NCBI GenBank assembly: GCA_024235715.1
Contig: JACKLW010000011.1
Coordinates: forward strand, 89,465-153,464
Direction: 5' to 3'
DNA length: 64,000 bases
Source of the DNA: Accumulibacter sp.
GTDB taxonomy: Bacteria > Pseudomonadota > Gammaproteobacteria > Burkholderiales > Rhodocyclaceae
Shown here: piece after piece, positions 61,705 to 64,000 of the stretch
Layout: every line of letters starts with the position of its first letter
Numbering within the stretch: position 1 is the stretch's first letter
Program-made: the position numbers and the translations under genes
Notes under the pieces: generated by a model
Database searches by the model: none
Told to the model about the DNA's origin: nothing
Seen by the model: only the letters and a program-made list of their open reading frames with translations

Positions 61705-62015
61705 GGCGCCGGCCCTCCTGGTTTCGTTGCGTGGGTGATTGCAGTTTCCGTTGGCTCATCGCAAAATCGGTGCGCAAGCGTCGCTGGCGGCTCGGTACGC
61801 GGCCGCCCTTCTGCGCAGCCGTCGCGAGACGCATCGTCACGGAGGGGGCGCTTCAGGCGACTGGCTCGGAGGAGTATATATTGGCTCCGTCGGGAGTGCT
61901 CGATCTCGCGATCAGCCTCCGGCAGATCGGAGGCTCACAGGGAGCTGCGCGGTGAAGAACCGCCGGCATCGACACGCTATCATTGGTGCCAACGCTTGAC
62001 CCAGGAAATGCCGTC
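61705..62015. other. Divergent intergenic region, no gene recognised
   Basis: 311 bases between the dehydrogenase and the M23 peptidase. A short AT patch, GTATATATTGG near 61875-61885, could be promoter-like. No gene or RNA is supported. Confidence 0.45.
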
Positions 62016-62948
62016 GTGAAGCCCGCCCTGTTTGTCTGTTTGCTGTTGTTCCACAGCCTGCGCCTGTCTGCGGGTCAGCTGCAGAACTACCCGTTCGTTG
62101 TGGAAACAGTGAAAGAAGGTGCTGGCCAGCGCGTCGTCGCGCGTAATAATGGCCCGGCGCCAGTATCGGTGATGGTTGCGCTCACAGCTTCGCGCAACAT
62201 CAGCACGGACCGGCCCTTCCCCGTCCAGGCCGTCGTTCCGCCCGGTGCCCGGAGCCTGCAGCTGGCACGGATTCGGCCGGAGACAGCCGGCGCTGCCTAC
62301 TCCTTTCGCACCCGCTCCTCGTGGCTGCTCGGCGATTTCAACGCCCGACAGAGCCCCGCAGCCATCTATCGCTTGCCGTACCCGGACGGGCTGGCGTTCC
62401 ACATCGGTCAGGCTGCCGGTGGTCCCCTGATCAGTCACAAGACGCCGGACAGCCAGTACGCGGTGGATATCGGTATGCCGGAGGGCACGCCGGTGGTCGC
62501 TGCGCGCGATGGTTTGGTGATCGATACCGAAGCCAACCAGATCCGTGGCGGGCGAAGCCCGGAGTTGATGGGCAAGGCCAACGCCGTGCGCATACAGCAC
62601 CGCGACGGAACCATCGCCGTCTATGCACACCTGGCGCATGGCGGCGTGCTCGTGCGTCGGGGACAACGAGTCAAGGTCGGGATGCGCATCGGGCTGTCGG
62701 GGTCCACCGGCTACTCGTCGGGGCCGCATCTGCACTTCGCCGTACAGACCGTACTGCGGTCGGGGGATCGCCTGACGATGCTCTCCTTGCCCTTCAGGTT
62801 CTACGTGGGCAGTCCGCCTGCGGTTTTTGCGCCCCGAGCAGGAATGTTCGTCACCGCGCAATATGTTTCCCCGGGGCGGATTCCCAGCGCTGTGCCGGCA
62901 GGCGGCAAAGCGCTCACGCACCGTCCGGGCGCGGGGAGTTCCAGGTAG
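62016..62948 (+). CDS. Secreted M23-family (LytM) peptidase
   Basis: A 310-residue protein from GTG 62016 (KPALFVCLLLFHSLRLSAG signal peptide) behind AGGAAA. The M23 domain spans about 150-270: YAVDIGMPEGTPVVAARDG carries the metal-binding Asp, then VYAHLAHGGVLVRRG, GLSGSTGYSSGPHLHFAV with the HxH ligand pair. It likely cleaves or recognises peptidoglycan cross-links. The preceding His in LISHKTPDSQY would complete the site, as in this subfamily. It is not operonic with neighbours. Confidence 0.87.
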   Translation: MKPALFVCLLLFHSLRLSAGQLQNYPFVVETVKEGAGQRVVARNNGPAPVSVMVALTASRNISTDRPFPVQAVVPPGARSLQLARIRPETAGAAYSFRTRSSWLLGDFNARQSPAAIYRLPYPDGLAFHIGQAAGGPLISHKTPDSQYAVDIGMPEGTPVVAARDGLVIDTEANQIRGGRSPELMGKANAVRIQHRDGTIAVYAHLAHGGVLVRRGQRVKVGMRIGLSGSTGYSSGPHLHFAVQTVLRSGDRLTMLSLPFRFYVGSPPAVFAPRAGMFVTAQYVSPGRIPSAVPAGGKALTHRPGAGSSR

Positions 62949-63528
62949 CAGCAAGCCCCCCTCTTACCCAGTTCCTCCGTTGCGCGGGTGGCGCCGAGCA
63001 GGGCGTAAACGACCGCGACGTCGCATCCTGAGGCGGCTGTGCTCAGGACATGAGTTCCACGGCCCACGAAACGCAAACGTCTCTGCGCCCTTGATTGGCG
63101 AATGCGCGCGGCGCCAGTCTACGCCGACATGGTCGGGGAATCGCTGTAGCGCAGGCATCGCGGGCGCACTCGTCACGAGTCTCCCGGCGGGTGTTGATTT
63201 CCGGCGATCCTGTTCCACTGTCGGAAAACTTTACACCGTGGCGCGCAGTTACTTGCTTGGTGCGACTGGGGTCTCCGCCGTCCGGTGTCGGCAAGTCTCT
63301 GATTGAATGTTGTATAAATGGGAAACGCTGCCGTCGATGTATGCTGCCCGGCATGTCGCGCCTTGTTTCACCGGTCAAGCATGGTGTTGGTTCGCCATTG
63401 ATATTGCGAATAAGAATCAACGTGTTGGAAATCAGGGCACAGCTATTGCTTGTCCGTTCAACTTGTGCCCGTGTGGAGACCGGGCACGAAATGCATGACC
63501 AACCAACCTTTTGAACGGAGGAACACTG
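62949..63528. other. Upstream region of interrupted secreted-protein gene
   Basis: 580 bases without a recognised gene. The right half (63300-63480) is markedly AT-richer than the rest of the window and holds a near-consensus sigma-54 promoter at 63435-63450. An activator-binding site would be expected roughly 80-150 bases upstream of it, but I cannot assign one. Confidence 0.55.
63435..63450 (+). promoter_or_regulatory. Sigma-54 (RpoN) promoter
   Basis: GGGCACAGCTATTGCT matches the -24/-12 consensus TGGCACRNNNNTTGCW at every defined position except the first; GG and GC are correctly 12 bases apart. It lies 79 bases upstream of the ATG at 63529. Sigma-54 control is known for PEP-CTERM protein genes in floc-forming Rhodocyclales, which fits the downstream gene. 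Confidence 0.7.
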
Positions 63529-64000
63529 ATGCGACGCCTTGTGTTGCTTCCCTTGACGATCTGCACCCTGGCCGGTGTACCTGCTCATGCGGTGCCAACG
63601 ACGGTCAACTAAAACGTGGACTTCTCTTCTCCAAGCCAGAGTTTCTGGGGCCCAGGCAAGAGCGCGGCAAGCTTTGGCATCGACCAGTTCCTCCTCGGCA
63701 ACTCCACTTTCGGCCTGCGCTTCGAGACCGGTGCCAGCACCGGAACCGTCAAGTCGAACTACAACAGCAGGATCACGGTCGCCTACGACAACGAGGCGCA
63801 AGCTGGGCCAGTCAGCTTGTTGCTCGGCTTCCAGGGAGACAGCAACGGCGGCCACTTCGACACGAGCTTTGGCGCATTCGTCGACGTCACCGCCTATTTC
63901 CCGGTGATTGGTGGCGTGACCGTGACGAATCCCAATTACAGCTTGCAGACAAGCCGTACCTACACGCCTTCGCCGCCGGACAGCGTCTCGGACAGCGATT
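63529..64000 (+). pseudogene. Secreted protein gene interrupted by in-frame TAA (runs off window)
   Basis: A well-formed start: ATG 63529, six bases after GGAGGA. It encodes a signal peptide (MRRLVLLPLTICTLAGVPAHA) and then VPTTVN before a TAA at 63610-63612. The same frame continues open after the stop to the window end, 129 codons without another stop, reading NVDFSSPSQSFWGPGKSAAS, FGIDQFLLGNSTFGLRFETG and so on, a sequence rich in Gly/Ser/Thr like secreted or PEP-CTERM surface proteins. The C-terminus is outside the window, so no sorting signal can be seen. It is either a nonsense pseudogene, a programmed readthrough, or a sequencing error. Confidence 0.7.

Follow-up and report, generated by a model that had tools for sequence, protein, structure and literature searches.

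A PEP-CTERM-type surface protein gene at an Accumulibacter contig end, probably interrupted by a single recent nonsense change behind its signal peptide

The window analyzed here comprises the final 64,000 bases of contig C11 (153,464 bases) in an Accumulibacter sp. assembly (G000; 4.14 Mb, 25 contigs, 90.54% complete). Base 64000 of the window is also the last base of the contig, and hence the gene under study, which fills the last 472 bases (63529–64000, plus strand), is cut by the assembly and not by the window alone. Its upstream neighbor is an M23-family peptidase gene at 61983–62948 (PF01551, 79.5 bits), and the 580 bases after it hold no clear gene. On translation, a short open reading frame starts at ATG 63529 and ends after 27 codons at a TAA stop at 63610–63612; it consists of a putative signal peptide, which extends to about position 63591, and six further residues. 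The N-terminus has the typical shape of a signal peptide, as judged by eye, with AHA at its end and VP following, and a ribosome-binding site (GGAGGA) was read directly from the sequence at 63517–63522 on the plus strand. Behind the stop, the same frame remains open for 129 codons (63613–63999, plus strand) until the contig end cuts it. The first-pass annotation had described this arrangement, with a good ribosome-binding site, TAA as codon 28 and 129 open codons up to the window end, and we found it as described.

A run of 129 stop-free codons has a chance probability of 0.05–0.09 at the local base composition, and the openness of the frame alone is therefore weak evidence. It is the homology of this stretch to residues 28–156 of the protein encoded by a relative, L004, that identifies it as a real coding frame. 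We also considered an antisense gene, as a minus-strand frame is open across 63043–63999, but the three antisense frames of L004 over positions 589–975 contain 2, 5, and 7 stops, respectively. With stops in all three, the antisense frame is not conserved, and this candidate was rejected.

L004, from the metagenome-assembled genome Burkholderiaceae bacterium isolate 13_July_SF_Bin36, was the one relative found in a scan of the genome contig collection, with 84% identity over all 129 residues behind the stop. Its gene is uninterrupted over 342 codons, and its start region aligns with that of the window gene, being one codon shorter. Three more distant homologues (34–45% identity) were found in three other genomes of the family. 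In total, at least 4 of 395 family genomes gave a match, the genome under study included; the best five candidates per genome were scored, so that weak relatives may be missed. Within the genus, none of the other 27 genomes matched, and the gene is thus an accessory one (1/28 genomes). The same search, again scoring the best five candidates per genome and hence liable to miss weak relatives, gave no relative in 398 other genomes drawn from the order, and none was found among plasmids and viral contigs. The first-pass annotation had proposed comparing the interrupted codon across related genomes. In this comparison, L004 has a sense codon where the window has TAA, and the frame is uninterrupted in all four homologues. 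At the position of the stop, the homologues show no conserved residue. A predicted structure of the intact L004 protein was unusable (mean pLDDT 30, pTM 0.19).

Next, the substitution pattern between the window gene and L004 was analyzed over the 387 bases behind the stop. Differences numbered 15, 11, and 49 at codon positions 1, 2, and 3, respectively, so that 49 of 75 fell on third positions. The NG86 method gave a dN of 0.10, a dS of 0.89, and an omega of 0.11 (bootstrap range 0.055–0.19, 300 draws), while LWL85 and YN00 gave omega values of about 0.13 and 0.06, respectively. The frame behind the stop has evolved under purifying selection, and the low omega together with the excess of third-position differences indicates that it was coding until recently. 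When the 21 residue differences were polarized using the three distant homologues, the window residue matched the outgroup in 5 cases, the L004 residue did so in 4, and 12 were undecided; the window side accordingly shows no surplus of changes. When dN (0.10) is set against half of dS (0.44), and even with every amino-acid change assigned to the window branch after the loss, our arithmetic limits the period of lost function to no more than roughly a quarter of that branch. The interruption is hence recent, or not real, or the stop is tolerated.

The C-terminus of the L004 protein carries a PEP-CTERM motif (PF07589, 23.9 bits against a cut-off of 20.7). On the NCBIfam model TIGR02595 it scored 13 bits, under the cut-off of 16, and the tails of two distant homologues scored 17.9 and 19.3 bits on the Pfam PEP-CTERM model, also under the cut-off, with the third giving no match. 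The C-terminus of the window gene lies beyond the contig end, and the first-pass suggestion to look there for a PEP-CTERM motif could be followed in the intact relative, where the motif is present. The same genome contains an exosortase (one PF09721 match, 247.6 bits against a cut-off of 25.7), the regulator PrsR (TIGR02915, 736.2 bits against a cut-off of 502.6), and 25 other PEP-CTERM motifs, none of them on contig C11. The window gene belongs to an ordinary class of genes for exported bacterial surface proteins, a known gene type with a known promoter type.

The missing 3′ half was sought elsewhere in the assembly. The L004 protein gave no further match in the genome at E-values up to 0.1, and a PEP-CTERM tail found where contig C21 starts (L026) was rejected as a candidate since it was, by eye, unlike the L004 tail. 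Because this half of the gene is missing, further lesions in it cannot be counted. About 90 bases behind the C21 tail lies an integrase-core fragment (rve_3, 37.4 bits; L026:247–702, minus strand).

A sigma-54-like promoter with the GG −24/GC −12 arrangement (GGGCAC-N5-TTGC) is located on the plus strand at 63435–63449, 79 nt before the start codon. It had been called near-perfect in the first-pass annotation; the site itself is real, but the adjective is too strong, as it agrees with 9 of 11 positions of the sigma-54 consensus. Sites of at least this score occur at background level in the window (16 on both strands versus 16.5 expected), and the stricter pattern GGCAC-N5-TTGCW occurs once, versus 0.41 expected. 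The site is credible because it is placed before a PEP-CTERM gene and because such sites are enriched before PEP-CTERM genes in this genome. Among 23 of the 25 PEP-CTERM matches (L020 and L026 lacked a start codon usable under the rule of the script and were excluded; the 23 start codons were chosen by that rule and not checked one by one), 11 had a sigma-54-like site of at least 9/11 within 250 nt upstream. No such site was present on the opposite strand of these regions, and 200 shuffles averaged 0.6, with at most 3. When the upstream stretch was extended to 450 nt, 12 of the 23 genes had a site, and in 11 of these 12 a TGTCG-N6-(T/C)TTACA box preceded it by 52–97 nt.

This two-part arrangement agrees well with published data. 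In the available text of Haft et al (2006; PMC1569441), motif 1 ends in TTTACA and is followed, after a spacer of 62.8 nt on average (32–92 nt), by a −24/−12 site placed on average 71 nt (SD 38.5) before the start. For a PEP-CTERM gene of Aquincola, the accessible part of a further study reports RpoN dependence, a mapped start site, and −24/−12 motifs (PMC9850573). The genome clearly shows the published two-motif PrsR/sigma-54 PEP-CTERM promoter pattern.

At the window gene itself, a perfect motif 1 box, the proposed PrsR enhancer site, was found at 63219–63235 (17 nt, TGTCGG-N5-TTTACA, plus strand, 12/12 positions). The window has no other such site on either strand, but the distance of 199 nt from this box to the sigma-54-like site falls outside the 52–97 nt seen at the genome's other genes. 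A possible degenerate second box at 63354–63370 (plus strand, 9/12 positions) has the usual spacing of 64 nt. As 15 plus-strand sites in the 64 kb score at least 9/12, this box is weak when taken alone. Upstream of L004 (507 nt) and of L006 and L007 (450 nt each), neither a sigma-54-like site nor a strong plus-strand motif 1 box was found; the starts of L006, L007, and L008 were our own choice, and L008 was left out of this comparison. The promoter is thus not a conserved feature of the protein family.

One of the two matches without a usable start deserves separate mention. L020 (C8:201523–201588, minus strand) is a PEP-CTERM tail in a 66-codon frame that has neither a motif 1 box nor a sigma-54-like site, and this frame follows closely after another long frame has ended. 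It is apparently what is left of a decayed PEP-CTERM gene.

Taken together, the data support the first-pass description of a secreted-protein gene that has a sigma-54-like promoter and a single nonsense codon. We assign a probability of roughly 0.6 to the reading that a PEP-CTERM gene has been disrupted at codon 28 by a single, recent nonsense change. The gene would encode an exosortase (PEP-CTERM) substrate that crosses the inner membrane by means of its signal peptide and that, to judge from L004, carries a sorting tail at its C-terminus. Transcription would probably be carried out by sigma-54 RNA polymerase under a PrsK/PrsR system; both promoter activity and a PrsK partner are presumed here. 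If the base is real in the sequenced population, translation would end just behind the signal peptide, so that no mature protein would be made, and this locus, out of about 26 PEP-CTERM loci, would carry a null allele. The apparent PEP-CTERM remnant L020 in the same genome was counted in support of a recent nonsense change. Points against it are the position at the contig end, the absence of the 3′ half of the gene, the missing promoter in the relatives, and the 199-nt spacing of the perfect box.

Three causes for the stop had been offered in the first-pass annotation. Two of them, a fresh nonsense change and a sequence error, are still viable, and recent gene loss or error is likeliest, rather than a special control mechanism. 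The main rival to a real nonsense allele is a consensus error near the contig end, to which we give well under even odds. In that case, through an assembly, consensus, or strain-mixing error, the gene would be intact in the organism and the stop would be a wrong base or a minority allele in the consensus. The stop lies about 390 bases from the contig end, where assemblies are least reliable, within a gene that occupies the last 472 bases of the contig, and apart from this one lesion the frame is conserved. Moreover, contig ends at PEP-CTERM genes are commoner in this assembly than chance would give, and strain variation could break the assembly there. Besides the C11 end, 3 of the 25 other PEP-CTERM motifs (C8 299–370, C19 675–743, and C21 78–143) start no more than 700 bases from a contig end, versus 0.21 expected (P about 0.001, with the distance chosen post hoc and not every contig's size looked up). 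Neighboring mobile elements could cause such clustering as well as strain variation. On the other side, no internal stop was present in the matched stretches of 59 ABC, 38 response-regulator, and 25 PEP-CTERM matches (122 in all), which indicates that the assembly is not generally error-ridden, and the other 156 codons of the window gene are present without a second stop or a frameshift.

The third cause, programmed or tolerated readthrough of the TAA, would set the amount of full-length protein: at a low, regulated rate of readthrough, translation would be a second level, besides the sigma-54-like promoter, at which the output of an extracellular-matrix protein is metered. We consider this very improbable, and the regulated form is without support in our data. 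The intact frame behind the stop and the low pairwise omega would fit it, as pairwise data alone cannot separate a long-standing read-through stop, but TAA occurs in none of the four homologues, all of which are uninterrupted. Furthermore, none of the 43 tRNA matches in the genome has the anticodon UUA. ARAGORN called 41 of these, all with ordinary anticodons, and the other two have UCU and CAU loops in an Rfam alignment read by eye; tRNAs for Phe and Asn are absent from the 43, so the set is incomplete, in the assembly or in the list, and a suppressor could have been missed. The RNA at 63601–63720 also folds worse than shuffled sequences (z = +1.93; 199 of 200 shuffles fold at least as well). 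Least credible of all is a translation restart at GTG 63616, from which a 128-codon frame runs to the window end: no ribosome-binding site precedes it, by eye, and its product would lack a signal peptide and could not be exported, as PEP-CTERM proteins need to be.

Two further observations were made on the tRNA genes. The two low-scoring tRNA-like sequences with UCU and CAU loops, without an ARAGORN call, lie about 8 kb apart on contig C18 (L078:101–168 and L079:101–157) and are perhaps tRNAs of a mobile element. Pairs of tRNA-Ala(ggc) and tRNA-Glu(ttc) occur at three places in the genome, on contigs C2, C5, and C11.

The result is mostly of annotation value, as it adds a PEP-CTERM-type gene whose four homologues are all uninterrupted. 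Its stop codon represents either an ordinary nonsense allele or an error. Our literature search found no paper pairing PEP-CTERM with a premature stop codon. Should the clustering of contig ends at PEP-CTERM genes prove real, strains may vary particularly often in these surface genes, so that metagenome assemblies break there.

Among known systems, the locus can be compared with pepA of Aquincola tertiaricarbonis RN12, an RpoN1-dependent PEP-CTERM flocculation gene (PMC9850573). As far as the accessible part of that study goes, the two share the sigma-54 type of promoter, but the L004 relative scored 14.5 bits versus the 80 needed for the floc_PepA model and is another protein by that model. 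A second comparison is with the substrates of the PEP-CTERM/exosortase (EpsH) system with PrsK/PrsR/sigma-54 promoters, as set out in the available text of Haft et al (2006; PMC1569441). Unlike those genes, the window copy has a nonsense codon, its tail is hidden by the contig end, and the distance between its exact motif 1 box and the promoter is 199 nt instead of the published 32–92 nt. In its other features it resembles them: an N-terminus shaped like a signal peptide, a long upstream intergenic region, a −24/−12 site 79 nt before the start with a motif 1 box upstream, a PEP-CTERM tail in the intact relative, and an exosortase and PrsR in the same genome.
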